Shown: piece after piece, positions 15,228 through 63,517 of the stretch | Position numbering within the stretch: the stretch's first letter is position 1 | How the letters are laid out: every line of letters starts with the position of its first letter | NCBI RefSeq assembly: GCF_016907455.1 | Contig: NZ_JAFBCB010000001.1 | Location: forward strand, 2,666,001 to 2,730,000 | Length of the DNA: 64,000 bases | Direction: 5' to 3' | Source: Brachybacterium muris | Lineage (GTDB): Bacteria; Actinomycetota; Actinomycetes; Actinomycetales; Dermabacteraceae | Translations under genes and position numbers: made by a program | The notes under the pieces: model-generated | Databases searched by the model: none | Told to the model about the DNA's origin: nothing | What the model saw: only the letters and a program-made list of their open reading frames with translations

Positions 15228-15480
15228 CGGCGATGACCAGCATCACCGTGGCGTCCACGCCGCGGGAGCGCACGGCGAGCGCCCCGACCCTGCAGGTGGG
15301 CAGCACCAGTCGCAGCACGGCCAGGGTGGCCAGCAGCCCGGCCAGCAGTATCCCGGCCAGCGGTACCGCCCCGGTGGCACCGATCGCCACGATCACCACC
15401 AGCAGCACCAGGGCCACCGTGAGCACCGCCTGACGGCGGAAGGCCGCGCGCAGGGTGAACGGGGACGGTTCGGTGGTCAC
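15190..15480 (-). CDS. DUF3017-type small membrane protein
   Basis: A 96-aa protein with about three hydrophobic segments (VLTVALVLLVVIVAIGATG, LAGILLAGLLATLAVLRLVL, VDATVMLVIAAGLAVL), the length and shape of the actinobacterial DUF3017 family. In other actinobacteria this family often sits near folate or purine genes; function is unknown. TAGCAT lies 6 nt before the GTG at 15480, consistent with a leaderless start. It is divergent from the aspartase gene. Its 3' end is duplicated just downstream (15141-15180). Confidence 0.65.
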   Translation of the reverse strand: MTTEPSPFTLRAAFRRQAVLTVALVLLVVIVAIGATGAVPLAGILLAGLLATLAVLRLVLPTCRVGALAVRSRGVDATVMLVIAAGLAVLATSPNL

Positions 15481-15598
15481 GGGGCCATGCTACGGGCCTG
15501 CGGGATACGCTGGACGGGGTCGGCAACGCCGTCGGCCGTCTCCCCACTCCGGTCCCACCGCAGCGACCGGGAACGCTCATCCCGGAGGATCCCCCCTG

Positions 15599-17107
<1,509 letters not shown>

Positions 17108-54720: not shown

Positions 54721-55467
54721 TCACTGGGGCAGTGCGGTGTGTTCTCGCATGTTCCTGTCGCCGGTGTCGATCCAGATTGTGTTGTGCACGATGCGGTCCA
54801 TGATCGCATCGGCGTGGACTGCTCCACCGAGCCGGGCGTGCCAGTCCTTCTTCGGGTACTGGGTGCAGAACACGGTCGAGCCGGTGTCATAGCGGCGCTC
54901 GAGCAGTTCCAGCAGCATCGAACGCATTCCCTCGTCAGGATGGTCCAGCAGCCACTCGTCGATCACCAGCAGCGAGAACGTGGAGTACTTCCGCAGGAAC
55001 TTCGTCTGGCCCTGCGGCTTGTCCTTTGCCAGGGCCCAGGCCTCTTCGAGGTCGGGCATTCGGATGTAGTGGGCTCGGAGCCGGTGCTGGCAGGCCTGCT
55101 TCGCCAGCGCGCAGCCGAGGTAGGACTTCCCTGAGCCGGTGAAGCCCTGGAAGACCACGTTCTGTTGCCGCTGGATGAAGGAGCAGGTTGCCAGTTGCGC
55201 GATCACGTTCCGGTTCAGTCCCCGTTCCTCGACCAGATCCAGCCGCCGCAGGTCCGCTCCGGGATAACGCAGCCCCGCCCGGCGGATCAGACCCTCGACC
55301 TTTCCATGATTGAAGATGGAATGCGCCTCGTCCACGATCAGCTGGAGCCGTTCCTGGAACGACATCCCCAGCACGTGAGCCTCATCCTGGGCATCGATCG
55401 CGTCCAGCAGCGCGGTCGCGCCCATCTCGCGCAGCTTCCGCTTCGTGTCGTTATCGATCACGCTCAC
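54721..55467 (-). CDS. istB: IS21 helper ATPase IstB (copy 3)
   Basis: 248 aa, identical in translation to the other copies, Walker A and B intact. The GTG start overlaps the istA stop. Confidence 0.94.
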   Translation of the reverse strand: MSVIDNDTKRKLREMGATALLDAIDAQDEAHVLGMSFQERLQLIVDEAHSIFNHGKVEGLIRRAGLRYPGADLRRLDLVEERGLNRNVIAQLATCSFIQRQQNVVFQGFTGSGKSYLGCALAKQACQHRLRAHYIRMPDLEEAWALAKDKPQGQTKFLRKYSTFSLLVIDEWLLDHPDEGMRSMLLELLERRYDTGSTVFCTQYPKKDWHARLGGAVHADAIMDRIVHNTIWIDTGDRNMREHTALPQ

Positions 55468-57026
55468 CGGACACCTCCGGCGTAGTAGTCGGCGCCACGG
55501 ACGTATCCGCCGTCTTCCGCGGGTTCCTCGCGGGGTGGACGCAGGGCGGCGACCTTGTCCTGCCCGGTGGCCAAGATCGGGTGCAGATGCGCATAGCGCG
55601 GTGAACGGACCCGTCCCGTCAGCGCGAGTGCGCAGGCCGCCTCGACCCGATCTACGGAGAAGCGGCGAGAGAGCCGTAGCACCGCCAACGCGGGATCCAG
55701 GCCCTGTTCCACGATCGGCACGGACTCGAAGATCCGCTGGATCACGATCACCGTGGCCGGCCCGACCCGATCTGCCCACGCCCGCACCCTCTGCGCGTCC
55801 CAGGCCTGGAAACGCTCGCCCGCAGGTAGGTCCGCGTCGTTGGTGCGGTACTCATTGCTCGCGGTCTCCGGGAGCAGCAGGTGACTGGTCAGTCGCTGGC
55901 TGCCCTGATAGATCTCCAGCGTCCGGGCCGTGATGCGCAGATCGACCTTCGCGCCGATGTGCGCGAACGGCGCGGAGTAGAAGTTCCGCGCGAACGTGAC
56001 GTGCCCGTTCCTGCCCACTCGTCGTCCGTAGTGCCATGTCGAGATCTCGTAGGGCACCGCCGGCAGCGGCGTCAGCAGCGGCCGCTCCTCCGCGTCGAAC
56101 ACGCTGGCGCGGGATCCGGGCCGCTTCTGGAACGGCTCCGCGTTATAGGCCTCCATCCGCTGCCCGATGGCGGCTGCAAGTTCGGGCAGGGACGTGAATC
56201 GCTGATCCCGCAGCCCGGCGATGACCCAGGTCGCGACGTGCGCGACGGTGTTCTCCACGCTCGCCTTGTCTTTCGGTTTCCGCACCCTCCCCGGGAGCAC
56301 CGCCGCCGAGTAATGCGCTGCCATCTCGCGATACGCATCGTTCAGGACGATCTCGCCCTCGCGGGGGTGCTTCACCACACCGGTCTTGAGGTTGTCCGGA
56401 ACGATCCTCGGGACCGTCCCGCCCAGCGCCTCGAACATCGCTACGTGCGCTCGCAGCCAGGACTCCTGGCGCATATCCAGCGCCGGGAAGCAGAACGCGT
56501 AACGAGAAAAAGGCAGGCAGGCAACGAACAAGAACACCTTCGAGACCTCGCCGGTGACCGGATCGGCCAGCTCCATCGTGGGGCCGGACCAGTCGACCTC
56601 CACGCTCTGGCCGGCCTTGTGACCGACTCTCGAAGCGGCACCGGTGACCATGACGTGGTGCTGGTAGGTGCGGCAAAACCGGTCATACCCCATCGCCGGA
56701 TCCCCAGCCGCCGTGGTCGCGTCGAAGTACTCGCCGTGCAACAGCTTCAGCGTCACGCCGACCCTGGCCATCTCTCGATGGACCTGTTCCCAGTCCGGCT
56801 GTGCGAACACGCTCTCGTGCTCGCCCCGGCCCGGGAACAACCGGGCATACACCTGCTCATCGGCGACGTCCGCGATATCGCCCCACCCGATCCCTGCAGC
56901 GTCAGCGGCCTCGAACACCGCCCTCACGGACTTGCGGGACATGCCCTGCGAGGACGAAATCGCTCGCCCCGACAGACCTTCTGCGCGCAGCTGGAGCACC
57001 AGCTTCGCCCTGATCTTCCGTACCAT
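55464..57026 (-). CDS. istA: IS21 transposase IstA (copy 3)
   Basis: 520 aa, identical in translation to the other copies; D145, D211 and E258 kept. The proC transcript would read into it in the sense direction, where the leader hairpin at 57036-57074 should mask its ribosome-binding site. Confidence 0.95.
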   Translation of the reverse strand: MVRKIRAKLVLQLRAEGLSGRAISSSQGMSRKSVRAVFEAADAAGIGWGDIADVADEQVYARLFPGRGEHESVFAQPDWEQVHREMARVGVTLKLLHGEYFDATTAAGDPAMGYDRFCRTYQHHVMVTGAASRVGHKAGQSVEVDWSGPTMELADPVTGEVSKVFLFVACLPFSRYAFCFPALDMRQESWLRAHVAMFEALGGTVPRIVPDNLKTGVVKHPREGEIVLNDAYREMAAHYSAAVLPGRVRKPKDKASVENTVAHVATWVIAGLRDQRFTSLPELAAAIGQRMEAYNAEPFQKRPGSRASVFDAEERPLLTPLPAVPYEISTWHYGRRVGRNGHVTFARNFYSAPFAHIGAKVDLRITARTLEIYQGSQRLTSHLLLPETASNEYRTNDADLPAGERFQAWDAQRVRAWADRVGPATVIVIQRIFESVPIVEQGLDPALAVLRLSRRFSVDRVEAACALALTGRVRSPRYAHLHPILATGQDKVAALRPPREEPAEDGGYVRGADYYAGGVR

Positions 57027-58539: not shown

Positions 58540-58796
58540 CGTCCGCGACCCCAGTGAGGAGGGACGTCGCTGGCGATCCTGGCGTCGTTGGACTCGTCGG
58601 CGCCCGGCTCGGGCCGGTCCTCGTCCATCCGGTCCGGGAGGATCGGGGCGCGCGGGGTCCTGGAGCCGCTGGGCCGGGCCGCTGGGTCGTCAGCAGTCTG
58701 CCCGTCCCAGTCCATGGGTCTACCGGTCAGGGAGGAGATCACGACGGGGCCGGAGCGGGGGCGCCGCTTCTCGCCCGCGGTGCCGTCGTCGCTCAC
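58536..58796 (-). CDS. 86-aa hypothetical protein, orphan
   Basis: A hydrophilic protein rich in Arg, Asp and Pro with no span or signal (MSDDGTAGEKRRPRSGPVVI, SSLTGRPMDWDGQTADD..). It looks disordered apart from the short segment GPVVISSLTGRPMDW. The GTG at 58796 overlaps the helicase-like gene's stop (GTGA) and its own stop overlaps DUF368 (ATGA), so it sits inside a fully coupled unit, which argues that it is real. I do not recognise a family. Confidence 0.6.
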   Translation of the reverse strand: MSDDGTAGEKRRPRSGPVVISSLTGRPMDWDGQTADDPAARPSGSRTPRAPILPDRMDEDRPEPGADESNDARIASDVPPHWGRGR

Positions 58797-61700
58797 TGCC
58801 GTTCCTGGTAGCGACGGATGGCGCTGGAGACGGACACGTCCAGCAGCACCGAGCGCTGCTCGAAACCCAGGAAGCTGCGCACCTCGGTGGCCAGGTGCTC
58901 CTCCAGGCGCGCGCGACCGTCGGAGCAGATGTACTCCACCACCGCGTCGAAGTCCTCGCTGGAGTAGAACGACAGCGGGTGCCCGGCGGGGATCTGCGGC
59001 CGCGGCAGGCGGTGCCGCACAGTTCCCACACCGGTGAGCGAGTCGGTCTGCTCCTCGGTCTGCATCAGTCGCAGTGCTCGTTCCACGGCGCGCCGGATCC
59101 GCTCGGCCTCGCCGTCGGGGTCGATGAACAGCGCCCAGGACCACACGCGCTCGGTGGCCCAGCCGGCCCGCTCGAGCCGCTCGGCGCGCAGGCGGTCACG
59201 CTCCCGCTGACTGCGGGTGCTCACGTAGCGGGAGCCGTCGGTGTCCACGGCCAGCAGCAGGCGGCCGGGCAGTTCGGGGTGTCCCAGGGCTAGTTCGATC
59301 CGGTCCGAGGTGAGCCCGAAGTCGCTCTCGACCACCAGGCCCAGTCGCCACAGCCGGTCGGCCAGGTCGCGCACCAGGGCGTCGGTCTCCAGTTCGCCGG
59401 GGGCCGCGGGCACCGTCTCGGAACCGGCATCGGAGCCGCCCGTCGCGTCGGCGGTCTCGGAACTGTCGGTCGCCACACCGGCGTCCGCGGATGCCTGCTC
59501 GACCGGCTGCTGCTCGTCCGACGGACCCGAGCGGATGGCCCCGTCCTGATCGTCGGCGTCGTCCGGATCGTCGGCGTCATCTGCAGCGTCGTCCTGGCCG
59601 CCACCCTGTGGAGCCTGCTCCCCGGCGGCCTTGCGGGCCAGGGCCGCTTCGAGGGCGGCGTCGAAGTCCTCGTCGGACATCTCCGCGTCGCCGTCGGCAG
59701 CGAAGGCGGAGACAGGCTCTGTGGTGTCGGTGGCATCGGAGCGGGCCTCGGTTCGCACCTGGGCAGTGTTCGCCGCGGGCGCGGCTGTCTCTTCCGCCGC
59801 AGGCGCGGCCGTCTCGTCCGTTCCGGTGAGGGCCGCGACCTGCGGGACCACCTCGACGTCGGCACCGCCGCGCAGCACCCACAGCATGGCCCGCAGATCG
59901 CGGGCACCCTCGGAGCGAAGGCGCGAGGGATCCAGGTCCTGCACGTCGATCGAGGACACCACGGTGGTGCGGCCGCGGGCGCGGGTGATCACGGTGGCCA
60001 GGGCCTTGCGGCCGCCGGCCTCGGAGAGCGGCCCGAAGCGGTGCAGCAGGCGTCCGTGTGGGGTGCGCCCGAAGCCCACCGAGACGATCACGTCGTCCCG
60101 CACGATACTGGAGGCGTGGGCGGCCGGCAGCACGGTGAAGAACTCCGGGGCGCCCGGGTCGAAGAAGCCGCGCAGTGCGGGGATCACCGCGACGGTCTGC
60201 ATGATGCGCTCCATCAGGCGGCGGGCGTGCTCGGAGGTGAAGGTGAGCACCGCCAGGGACCGCTCGGGACGGGTGCGTGCGTGCTCGATCACCAGGTCGG
60301 TGACGCGGCGCAGCTCCCCCTCAGTGCTCTCGACGTACTCCATACCCTCGGTGACCGGGCCGCGCCCGTTCTCCACCAGGACCAGACGATCCGGTTCGGG
60401 GGCCACGGGGCTGGGCACCGCGAGCACCTCGCGCATCAGGGCGCGGCGATGGGCGAAGGCCCGCAGGCCCTCGGCGGCGGGGCGGCCGTCGCGCCCCAGT
60501 TCCACGACCTCGGCGATGCGCAGCATGTCGTCCAGCAGGCTGGGCTGGTCCTCGCCGCCGTACTCGAGGGGGTCTCCCACGACCACGGTCTGGGAGGCCC
60601 GCACGATCGAGGGCAGGGCCGCGGCGGTGGGCAGGCGGCCGCCGTCGGCCACGATCACCACGTCGAAGTGGCGGCCCCGCGGGATCACCTGCGGCACCAG
60701 GTACGGGGAGGCCAGCCAGGTGGGCCGGGAGCGGAACAGGATGTCCTCGTACTTCGCCGACAGGTCCCGGATGGACACCGTGGAGGCGCGGGCCAGTTCG
60801 GCGATCGCGGCGCGGGAGGTGTCCGGGTAGGACTTCATGGTCGCCACCCGCACCTCGTCGGCCGCGGCGTGCACGCGGGTGGCAGAACCGGCCAGGTGCT
60901 CGGCGTCCAAGCGGCGGAACCGCTCGGCGACCTGCGAGAGGGAGGTGCCGTCGTACTGGGAGATGGTGGGCTCGGCGCCGGCGATGAACTCCAACACGCT
61001 GCGCCACCACGCCAGGTCCAGCTCGCTGGTGACCTGGGCGGCGGGGACCCGACGGGTGCGCAGGTCCTCCACCAGCTCACCCAGGCCGTCGAACTCGAGG
61101 CGGCGCAGCAGCTCGGTGCGGCGCGGCAGGGTATCCAGGTCACCACGGTCGCGGTGCAGGGCATCCAGGCGCCCCTCGAGGTCGTCGAAGGGCGTGCCGG
61201 CCAGGTCGCGGCCGGTCTCGGTGCCGTCCGCAGACACGGTGCCGTCCAGCAGCACGGCAAGCTCGTCGAGGATCCGCTGGGCCTTCTGGGCGGTGGCCCG
61301 CACCTGCTCGAGGTCCTCCGGCAGGGTGGGCAGCCTGGTGTCGTCCACGGCGATCTGACGCCAGGAGTCCCGCACCCGTCGGGCATCCAGCAGGTCCCGG
61401 TGCAGATCGGTGGTGAGGGAGGCGGGTCGCTGCAGGGCCTCGCCCTCCTTGCGCAGCCGCCGCCTCACGCCCCAGCCCATCGTCACGCCGTGATCGGCGC
61501 GCCAGGTCTTGTCCCCGGTGGCGGCCACCAGCTCGGCCAGCTCAGCGCGGAACACGGCGGGCTGGAAGGTGGCGAGCACGCCGCGCACCCGGTCCAGCAG
61601 GGCGATGCGCCCCAGCAGTTCGTCCAGGGACGTCGCGGGGCGCAGACCGATGCCGTTCCCCGTGGAAGCGGCGGCCTTGCGCAGCTGGGGCAGCATGACC

Positions 61701-63517
61701 GTGCGCAGTTCGTCGACAAGGGCCGCGGCGCGCTCGGCCTGGGTGTCGGAGCTGATGGGTGCGCCGTACCAGGCGGTGGTCTCGGGCCCGGAGGTGAGGA
61801 CACCCACGGTCGCGGCCTCGCGCAGGGCTTCGGCGTAGCGCTCGCGGTCCTCGCCGATCATCTGGGCGGCCACGTCGGAGCGCAGACGCACGGTGGTGCG
61901 CGGGGCAGGACGCTGCCGGGTCAGCGCGGCGAGAGCGGAGATCGCGTCGTGGGCGGAGGCCTGCCAGGGCTGCTGGATGCGGTGCATCGCCTCGACGTGC
62001 CCGGTGAGGATCTCGCGGGTGCGGGTGAGCTCGGCCGGTTCGGCAGCGGAGTCCTCGGTGCCCAGGCCGAAGGTGCCGGCGCGCCGCAGACTGCGCAGCA
62101 GGGCGGCCGAGGCGTTGCGCTGGAGCGAGGGATCCGGGGAGAGGTCGAACACCAGCTCCTCGATGCCGCGCTCCTCGGCGGTATCGGTGAGCTGGGAGAG
62201 GTTGCGGCGGCGCTGGGAAACCACCAGCACGCTGCGACCACGGGCATTGAGCTCCTCGGCCAGGTCCACCACCAGGTCCAGGGTGTCGGAGCCGGGGGGC
62301 GCGGCGATCGCGAGGTGCTTGCCTGCCAGGACCTTCGCGAGGGCCTCGCGGCGGTCAGGGTCCACGGCCGCGACCAGTTCGTCCTCGGGCGCCAGGGCTT
62401 CGATGTCCGGGGGGTTCTCGCTCTCGTGCAGGATCCCGGCCCGCACCTCGGTGCGGGCTGGCTCATGGCCGGCGAGCGCTGCGACCACGGGGCTCGCAGA
62501 CCAGTCGGCGAGGTCGGAGTCGAGGTCGTCGCCGACGGAGCCGGCGGCGTCCATGATGTTGCCGACCACCAGCGCGTGGGTGATGCGGAAGCCCGGCAGG
62601 GGCTGGCCGAGGGCCCGAAAGGCGTCCAGCACCGGGTTGGGGTCGAAACCGTGATGCTTGTCGGTGGTCGCCAGCAGCGCGCGGGCATCCACCGCCACGC
62701 CGGCCTCGCGCAGGGCGCGCAGCAGAACGGGGTTCAGGTCGGCGGTGGCATCGAGGTCCAGGTCCACGTCCTCGCGGGCGTTGCCGCGCAGGCGCAGGGT
62801 GATCGGCCGCACCAGCACCGGGGCGTGGACGGGCTCGGAGCCGTCCTCGGGGTGCCAGGTGGCCTCGCCGATGCCCAGGTGGCAGGTGGTCAGGCCCACT
62901 TCCTCGGCGTGGCGCTCGGCGATCTCCCGCAGGGTGCGGGCGTGGGCGCGGGCATCGGCCAGTGCCCCCACTTCGCGCACCAGGGAGGACAGGCGGGTGG
63001 GGCCGCGGCCGGCCAGCAGCTGAGCGAGACCGGAGGGGTGGGAGTGGGTGAGGTCCAGGTAGGTGGCGCCGGCCCGCATCTGGGTGAGGAACGACGGGGC
63101 GGTCTCGCCGCCGGTGATCTGCCGGTGCCAGCGGTCCAGGGCGTCGGCCACGACGTCCTCGCGGCTGAGGGGACGGTGCTCGCGCACGGGACGCGGCAGA
63201 TCGTCCTCGTCCTGCTCAGGGGCGGTACCGGCGTCGGCCCCACCCAAGCGCTGGGCGACCACGACGTCGATCCCGGGGTGCAAGGGCGGCTCCCCCGCGG
63301 CGCGGCGGCGCTCGGCGAGGTGGGCAGGGGGCTGCGCTGCGCTGCCATCACGGCCGGTGTCGTCATCCCTCCCTGCGCCGGTGGCAACGGGGGCGGCGTC
63401 GCCGCTGGTGGCGGGTGCGCGGGAGGTGCCGCGATCAGCCTTCTGGGCGTCGTCACGACGGGCATCGGCCGGGGCCGAGGCTTCGGGGTTCTTCTTCCCG
63501 CGCAGGAATCTCCACAT
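58793..63517 (-). CDS. DUF4011-type superfamily 1 helicase-like protein with C-terminal nuclease-like domain, degenerate
   Basis: 1574 aa. An N-terminal ~130 residues are disordered; the DUF4011-like domain follows (TYLDLTHSHPSGLAQLLAGRG). The helicase core is degenerate: at about residue 406 Walker A is IAAPPGSDTLDL, without the GKT/S lysine, and at about residue 950 Walker B is DVVIVADGGRLP, where DEAS is expected. Motif VI is kept (ATVITRARGRTTVVSS, about residue 1180). An acidic Ala/Asp-rich linker (about 1225-1390) leads to a MTES_1575/DUF559-like nuclease domain (LLLAVDTDGSRYVSTRSQRERDRLRAERLERAGW). The ATG at 63517 has TAGCGT 8 nt upstream (leaderless); a TTG at 63526 is less likely. 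It overlaps the 86-aa gene. Confidence 0.75.
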   Translation of the reverse strand: MWRFLRGKKNPEASAPADARRDDAQKADRGTSRAPATSGDAAPVATGAGRDDDTGRDGSAAQPPAHLAERRRAAGEPPLHPGIDVVVAQRLGGADAGTAPEQDEDDLPRPVREHRPLSREDVVADALDRWHRQITGGETAPSFLTQMRAGATYLDLTHSHPSGLAQLLAGRGPTRLSSLVREVGALADARAHARTLREIAERHAEEVGLTTCHLGIGEATWHPEDGSEPVHAPVLVRPITLRLRGNAREDVDLDLDATADLNPVLLRALREAGVAVDARALLATTDKHHGFDPNPVLDAFRALGQPLPGFRITHALVVGNIMDAAGSVGDDLDSDLADWSASPVVAALAGHEPARTEVRAGILHESENPPDIEALAPEDELVAAVDPDRREALAKVLAGKHLAIAAPPGSDTLDLVVDLAEELNARGRSVLVVSQRRRNLSQLTDTAEERGIEELVFDLSPDPSLQRNASAALLRSLRRAGTFGLGTEDSAAEPAELTRTREILTGHVEAMHRIQQPWQASAHDAISALAALTRQRPAPRTTVRLRSDVAAQMIGEDRERYAEALREAATVGVLTSGPETTAWYGAPISSDTQAERAAALVDELRTVMLPQLRKAAASTGNGIGLRPATSLDELLGRIALLDRVRGVLATFQPAVFRAELAELVAATGDKTWRADHGVTMGWGVRRRLRKEGEALQRPASLTTDLHRDLLDARRVRDSWRQIAVDDTRLPTLPEDLEQVRATAQKAQRILDELAVLLDGTVSADGTETGRDLAGTPFDDLEGRLDALHRDRGDLDTLPRRTELLRRLEFDGLGELVEDLRTRRVPAAQVTSELDLAWWRSVLEFIAGAEPTISQYDGTSLSQVAERFRRLDAEHLAGSATRVHAAADEVRVATMKSYPDTSRAAIAELARASTVSIRDLSAKYEDILFRSRPTWLASPYLVPQVIPRGRHFDVVIVADGGRLPTAAALPSIVRASQTVVVGDPLEYGGEDQPSLLDDMLRIAEVVELGRDGRPAAEGLRAFAHRRALMREVLAVPSPVAPEPDRLVLVENGRGPVTEGMEYVESTEGELRRVTDLVIEHARTRPERSLAVLTFTSEHARRLMERIMQTVAVIPALRGFFDPGAPEFFTVLPAAHASSIVRDDVIVSVGFGRTPHGRLLHRFGPLSEAGGRKALATVITRARGRTTVVSSIDVQDLDPSRLRSEGARDLRAMLWVLRGGADVEVVPQVAALTGTDETAAPAAEETAAPAANTAQVRTEARSDATDTTEPVSAFAADGDAEMSDEDFDAALEAALARKAAGEQAPQGGGQDDAADDADDPDDADDQDGAIRSGPSDEQQPVEQASADAGVATDSSETADATGGSDAGSETVPAAPGELETDALVRDLADRLWRLGLVVESDFGLTSDRIELALGHPELPGRLLLAVDTDGSRYVSTRSQRERDRLRAERLERAGWATERVWSWALFIDPDGEAERIRRAVERALRLMQTEEQTDSLTGVGTVRHRLPRPQIPAGHPLSFYSSEDFDAVVEYICSDGRARLEEHLATEVRSFLGFEQRSVLLDVSVSSAIRRYQERQ

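Follow-up and report, generated by a model that had tools for sequence, protein, structure and literature searches.

What keeps a bacterial protein with the layout of a helicase-nuclease in one unbroken frame when the residues that drive a helicase are gone? The question arises from a gene in a 64,000-nucleotide stretch of the Brachybacterium muris genome (3.65 Mb, one contig; NZ_JAFBCB010000001.1, positions 2,666,001 to 2,730,000), here called the window. The gene runs on the minus strand from an ATG at 63517 to a stop at 58793 as a single open frame of 1574 codons, in agreement with the uninterrupted frame at 58793–63517 given in the initial annotation. Its Walker motifs have lost their working residues, as have those of most of its relatives, and nearly every genome sampled from its order, which we take to be Actinomycetales in the GTDB nomenclature, has the gene. 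We propose, from sequence comparison, that it may encode an ATP-independent pseudohelicase acting as a DNA-binding scaffold in chromosome maintenance, a proposal for which we judge the balance to be even; that the conserved protein does a non-motor DNA job is probable. Its parts are listed below in window coordinates, with the ratio of nonsynonymous to synonymous substitution rates (dN/dS) where it defines a block.

58793..63517, minus strand: putative pseudohelicase gene, 1574 residues; matches in all 40 family genomes (MTES_1575) and in 137 of 149 order genomes sampled
62363..63184, minus strand: DUF4011-type N-terminal domain, residues 112–385; PF13195 E 3e-4 over 191–267; dN/dS 0.10–0.14
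62279..62302, minus strand: vestigial Walker A, APPGSDTL, residues 406–413, from alignments; Lys412 to Thr
60743..62077, minus strand: helical insert between the helicase halves, residues 481–925, from the alignment
60638..60664, minus strand: vestigial Walker B, DVVIVADGG, residues 952–960, from alignments; Asp-Glu to Ala-Asp
59882..60601, minus strand: second helicase half, residues 973–1212, from the alignment; dN/dS 0.07–0.16 over block 926–1228
59378..59833, minus strand: acidic low-complexity linker, residues 1229–1380, weakly constrained; dN/dS 0.37–0.48
59087..59368, minus strand: MTES_1575 Vsr-type nuclease fold, residues 1384–1477; PF18741 E 4e-17; Asp1408 to Glu, Glu1425 to Asp, D1427 kept
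58796..59077, minus strand: conserved C-terminal tail, residues 1481–1574; dN/dS 0.05–0.09

Walker motifs and domain layout

The Walker A motif of the window protein reads A406-P-P-G-S-D-T-L, with Thr412 in place of the lysine, and in the Walker B motif, D952-V-V-I-V-A-D-G-G, the Asp-Glu pair has become Ala957-Asp958, so that neither hallmark of an active superfamily 1 (SF1) helicase is present. The initial annotation had read the same motifs as PPGSDTLD and ADGG and had allowed that intact motifs elsewhere would reveal a misplacement. Three checks upheld the placement and ruled this out. In the multiple alignment, GPPGTGKS and DEAS of the relatives align with APPGSDTL and VADGG of the window protein. 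A profile comparison of 13 Brachybacterium-type with 10 motif-intact sequences in hhalign gave a probability of 100 (E 2e-63, 988 columns), with P-loop falling on P-loop; the printed alignment ends before Walker B. Finally, the window protein holds no [AG]xxxxGK[ST] string, and such a string occurs elsewhere in seven of 166 relatives, in five as the strand just after the P-loop and in two far away.

The loss extends across the order. Relatives fall into a short type and a long, Hhe-type form; in what follows, families are cited by code (f4, f10, f23, f30, f42, f50), loci by L numbers and genomes by G numbers. The 175 short-type proteins aligned comprise nine with the lysine, 165 with another residue and one (L179) cut before residue 412. 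Lysine counts are given as 165 of 174 for that reason, and L179 is included in the 166 motor-less proteins and in the 137 lysine-less loci used below. Four loci are absent from the main alignment: L154, which is the window's own copy, L009 and L046, whose frame is broken, and L012, truncated at the end of a contig; L142 is a useless 10-base piece. Loci L043 and L151, unmatched by the single-protein search, were matched by the family profile as long-type frames with GPPGTGKS and are excluded from the counts of ten long relatives. At position 412 the lysine gives way to 14 different residues (Ala in 41 proteins, Val in 25, Ser and Arg in 21 each, Thr in 18, Gly in 13, other residues in the rest), and none of the 166 proteins retains the Walker B Asp-Glu pair. 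The nine lysine-bearing proteins are six from family f4, two from f42 and L096. A Brachybacterium oddity is thus ruled out, and the comparison does not show this protein to be further gone than its relatives.

The order of domains first read from the sequence, DUF4011/SF1 helicase followed by MTES_1575 nuclease, stood up to a profile search. PF18741, the MTES_1575 nuclease, matched residues 1384–1477 with 62.5 bits against a curated cut-off of 38.2 (E 4e-17), and PF13195 (DUF4011) scored 21.1 bits, just below its cut-off of 22.2 (E 3e-4); DUF4011 was matched at E ≤ 0.01 by 16 of 34 proteins scanned. AAA_11 and AAA_12, also named as expected profiles, gave no Pfam match for the window protein at E up to 1, and no ATPase model matched it; AAA_11 was found in 13 of the 34, a set that contains the window protein. 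At the profile level the helicase core nonetheless shows homology that supports descent from SF1: 34 relatives, of which six are motif-intact, were combined in a profile that matched SMUBP-2, UPF1/NAM7, DNA2 and SEN1 in the PDB with E down to 1e-13, whereas the window protein alone found no PDB match at E up to 1. Within the DUF4011-type domain, W130, G208, G217, W221, P233 and N262 are kept in 157–165 of the 166 motor-less relatives. The second helicase half keeps D982, E1068, H1097, D1141, G1169 and R1181 in 147–164, and its ancestral HYRS stretch (1010–1013) and Gln1136 are mostly lost. The C-terminal tail is possibly a winged-helix (DUF3320-like) part, going by the domain description of MTES_1575 in the available portion of its source (PMC3710099); DUF3320 gave no Pfam match in the window protein.

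Distribution, neighbourhood and history of the loss

All 40 genomes sampled from the window's family contain an MTES_1575 match. Of 149 genomes sampled across the order, 137 gave a relative when searched with a 367-residue piece of the window protein. Ten of the 12 order genomes missed by this piece gave profile matches, of which the one in G202, at 34 bits, is doubtful. Nine of the ten belong to a single genus of family f50. From these nine, six genes were retrieved, all of which lack the lysine, and the counts leave out the genes of the other three genomes (G167, G182 and G235). One of the 137 genomes, G180, shows only a long-type frame of 2106 residues, so the matches are not all orthologues. 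Among order genomes of at most 2.0 Mb, 11 of 12 have a relative, including one of 0.8 Mb, and the missed genome is 62% complete. At class level a search with a piece of the protein matched 24 of 118 genomes, eight of these in the same order; strong short-type matches outside the order came from families f23 and f10 and one f30 genome (L096). A protein search in named genomes returned 14 loci, 13 from Brachybacterium and one from an Actinomycetales metagenome-assembled genome. A second, long-type copy was present in only three of the 40 family genomes (frames of 1831, 2195 and 2443 residues, all with GPPGTGKS), which rules out a need for an active paralogue.

Outside the window's family, at least one of four downstream genes, in convergent orientation, accompanies 132 of 146 short-type loci, and two or more accompany 110. 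The four are mscL, a SAF-domain gene, a zinc-ribbon gene and a 5-formyltetrahydrofolate cyclo-ligase gene, as identified by a Pfam check on one representative of each; we take the SAF-domain protein to be CpaB-like and the zinc-ribbon protein to be of FmdB type. By type, the neighbours occur at eight of nine lysine-bearing loci, 124 of 137 lysine-less loci and none of ten long Hhe-type loci, in a set that includes some short regions and some truncated where a contig stops. Upstream, NlpC or DtxR genes were found at five of 28 loci of the window's family and at 24 loci elsewhere. The intact f4 and f42 genes have the same neighbours as the lysine-less ones, which makes orthology the best reading, and this sharing suggests that the gene stayed in place while a once functional helicase-nuclease was losing its motor.

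The number of losses was estimated from trees that leave out the cut L102; ATP-pocket and nuclease columns were removed only for IQ-TREE and the analyses that followed from it (the approximately unbiased (AU) test and a pair test). A first FastTree tree needed two losses, and a larger FastTree tree and the IQ-TREE tree each needed three changes. In both of the latter, the lysine-less f4 proteins L100, L139 and L140 are nested among lysine-bearing f4 proteins, and in the IQ-TREE tree starred branches force at least two changes for the lysine-bearing short group. The main lysine-less clade has weak support in the larger FastTree tree (0.59). A one-loss tree is 31 log units worse, but the AU test does not reject a single loss (p 0.114). 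Whatever the gene tree, lysine-bearing and lysine-less proteins both occur in the single taxonomic family f4. The best trees and the two states within f4 together suggest that the motor was lost more than once, apparently in place and two or three times.

In the window, the gene is followed downstream by a PF04018 protein gene; its upstream neighbours are DeoR, CopC and CN_hydrolase/MobA genes. Between a TrkA-like gene and the PF04018 gene, at 54721–57026 on the minus strand, is a transposase with an ATPase helper, which from its sequence we take to be an IS21-like element. PADLOC, run over ten neighbouring frames, gave a single match, of its DrmD model to this helper ATPase (E 2.5e-15), likely a false defence call. 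An MT0933-like antitoxin domain (E 4e-11) is encoded just outside the window by a frame at 15271–15840 on the plus strand, in the coordinates of locus L154, upstream of the gene and on the opposite strand.

Defence, cleavage or a role without a motor

Asking whether the protein serves defence, we compared it with the known anti-phage systems Hhe and ProA. All 34 scanned proteins, the window protein included, match the NCBIfam models of both (NF042953 and NF058533; PADLOC Hhe and PDC-S37), hhalign shows a homologous core in the long motif-intact relatives, and the window protein matches the PADLOC candidate PDC-S37 at 3e-97. These matches would fit a protein that still acts against phage but needs no ATP, serving as a DNA-binding sensor or a nuclease. 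Core status alone does not exclude defence either, since a DUF4011 gene of P. aeruginosa is core and yet flanks a defence hotspot, according to the available part of the report (PMC10250203). However, the window protein scores 308.1 bits against the ProA cut-off of 1500 and 155.3 against the Hhe cut-off of 2000. Unlike Hhe and ProA, it has lost its motor residues, and its relatives mostly occupy one chromosomal place, with neighbours that none of the ten long relatives has. PADLOC gave nothing in the ten surrounding frames beyond the IS21-like helper. The near-universal presence of the gene in the sample, its mostly fixed place and its retention in 11 of 12 genomes of at most 2.0 Mb favour housekeeping over defence, and we regard the anti-phage alternative as doubtful.

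The namesake protein, MTES_1575 of Microbacterium testaceum, is described in the available portion of PMC3710099 as combining HEPN, an SF1 helicase, a Vsr-type nuclease and two winged helices; it extends past residue 2160 and holds HEPN and transglutaminase domains, the HEPN being called active. On that description it has the PF18741 nuclease and the helicase-nuclease order in common with the window protein. It differs in that the window protein and 33 relatives gave no Pfam match to HEPN or transglutaminase, and in that the Walker motifs of the window protein are non-working.

Another alternative is an ATP-independent nuclease whose motor part is only a DNA clamp. Its nuclease block is strongly constrained (dN/dS 0.04–0.08 over residues 1381–1480) and D1427 is kept in 162 of 166 motor-less relatives. 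Taking Asp1408 and Glu1425 as catalytic, an assignment from conservation rather than from a paper, both residues are present in 13 of the 166, where the nuclease may work. Glu1425 is absent from six of 18 motif-intact proteins that have the region, and so may not be essential; Leu or Met replaces it in five long Hhe-type relatives (L104, L103, L052, L150, L145) and Asp in L141, and the Leu/Met changes indicate that such a change also occurs with a live motor. Against cleavage, D1408 is present in all 18 of these motif-intact proteins but in just 30 of the 166 motor-less ones (E1425 in 53), and Pro occupies this position in 64 of 120 relatives outside the window's family. The window protein has neither of the two residues, carrying Glu1408 for the first conserved Asp and Asp1425 for the next conserved acid, usually Glu. 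Loss of D1408 tracks motor loss in about 2.3 of three independent pairs on the tree, too few for the association to reach significance. We consider this alternative improbable; a nuclease role for the window protein itself, judged from these residues, would be unlikely, although both swaps are conservative.

A non-canonical motor that binds and hydrolyses nucleotide without the lysine could account for the retention of Gly409 (158 of 166), Asp952 (166), Asp982 (157) and Arg1181 (147). Conservation of 71 columns invariant in 19 motif-intact homologues was scored in 120 relatives outside the window's family. The lysine of Walker A, retained in 0 of the 119 that have a residue at this column, and the glutamate of Walker B, retained in 2 of 120, are the two least kept, which indicates that their loss is not chance. 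Other poorly kept columns are the HYRS stretch (H1010, S1013), Q1136, the nuclease D1408 and some others, such as N141, whereas W583, D952, G217, W1453, P932, E1068, G1169 and N262 are 98–100% kept. Among all 166, W583 and D952 are kept in 166, W1453 and G217 in 165, D1427 in 162 and E1068 in 157. The decay of HYRS and Gln1136 alongside the lysine and glutamate, and the 14 residues that replace Lys412, a variety unlike a new active site, make an active motor very improbable. Residue 1097 (60227–60229) is a possible clade marker, being His in the short type (151 of 166 motor-less and 8 of 8 intact proteins examined) and Gln in all ten long relatives.

Slow decay of a gene kept by inertia is barely credible: frames are broken before the nuclease in L009, L046 and L047, but dN/dS over the whole gene is 0.19–0.22 in four Brachybacterium pairs and lower in the domains, long open frames occur in the great majority of fetched loci, and the gene is kept in a 0.8 Mb genome. 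These ratios rule out a pseudogene and bear out the earlier view that selection keeps the frame. By block, dN/dS is 0.10–0.14 over the P-loop, 0.07–0.16 over motifs II–VI and 0.05–0.09 over the tail, rising to 0.23–0.30 in the insert and 0.37–0.48 in the linker; the low values in the motor-dead blocks point to strong purifying selection there.

Several observations weigh against a motor-free scaffold. None of the 28 loci in the window's family has the downstream neighbours, and 13 of the 137 lysine-less loci of other families lack them too. The conserved neighbour clusters listed include no helicase or nuclease, and no partner is known. Retention of Gly409 leaves room for nucleotide binding without hydrolysis, and the 13 proteins with both nuclease acids leave room for cleavage in some lineages. 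In the three Brachybacterium-type loci with broken frames, helicase and nuclease lie in separate frames, with the break in or near the linker, through either assembly error or a real split or loss; L047 was kept in the alignment with its open frame, so its nuclease columns are not real. Structure prediction, suggested in the initial annotation, gave no help: AlphaFold models of residues 112–1228 and 1372–1574, each from 13 Brachybacterium-type rows, had a mean predicted local distance difference test (pLDDT) score of 46.7 and 49.6 and were unusable, the main stretch above 80 being about residues 602–751, inside the helical insert.

With these points in the balance, the ATP-independent pseudohelicase can be set out as follows. 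The gene would have descended vertically, mostly at one chromosomal place, from a DUF4011-SF1 helicase-MTES_1575 nuclease. Its motor residues are lost, and so in most lineages is the first nuclease acid; fold residues, purifying selection and, outside the window's family, neighbourhood are kept. The product would have no ATPase activity. With the helicase cleft, nuclease fold and C-terminal tail that it retains, it would bind DNA, whether as single strands, ends or forks, and it may serve chromosome maintenance rather than mobile defence, sensing for an active enzyme partner whose gene lies elsewhere or giving it a platform for assembly. Of the scaffold in defence or repair first suggested for it, the DNA-binding scaffold thus stays as our best guess, a nuclease role is unlikely and defence is disfavoured.

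The same logic may operate in helicase-like subunits that sit beside active partners. In RecC, a helicase-like domain serves recognition and regulation within a helicase-nuclease complex. The helicase-like region of AddB holds Chi recognition and a latch in such a complex, according to the available part of PMC4824097. We compare only how these proteins may work, claiming no sequence relation, and no partner gene is known for the pseudohelicase. PriA, which we take to belong to an unrelated helicase family, may offer a second analogy. The PriA of Deinococcus radiodurans has no ATPase, yet binds DNA and interacts with DnaB, and K230R abolishes the ATPase of E. coli PriA, as stated in the available portion of PMC4504706; the latter bears on the 21 relatives with Arg at 412. 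On that account, both cases would show a DNA helicase, conserved in other respects, whose Walker A and B motifs have been lost throughout a lineage, with DNA binding kept in Deinococcus PriA. The motor-bearing form is the usual one there, whereas here the intact short type was found only in f4, f42 and one genome outside the order.

Meaning for the family

No description of a conserved motor-less protein of this kind was found in the titles and abstract openings returned by searches of the open-licence literature, in line with the initial suggestion of an undescribed function. A near-universal protein of roughly 1200–1700 residues in a large bacterial order would thus stand without a described function. 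The PDC-S37 model matches so strongly that, in many actinobacterial genomes, what is a core gene may be listed among the defence candidates, and annotators should treat such PADLOC matches with caution. We tentatively raise the possibility that an anti-phage helicase-nuclease was domesticated into a core, RecC-like DNA-recognition subunit with a dead helicase and a dead nuclease, its motor lost more than once in place. The protein may be a defence enzyme turned housekeeping protein, or the reverse, and orthologues with and without the motor, set among the same neighbours, allow the two forms to be compared directly.

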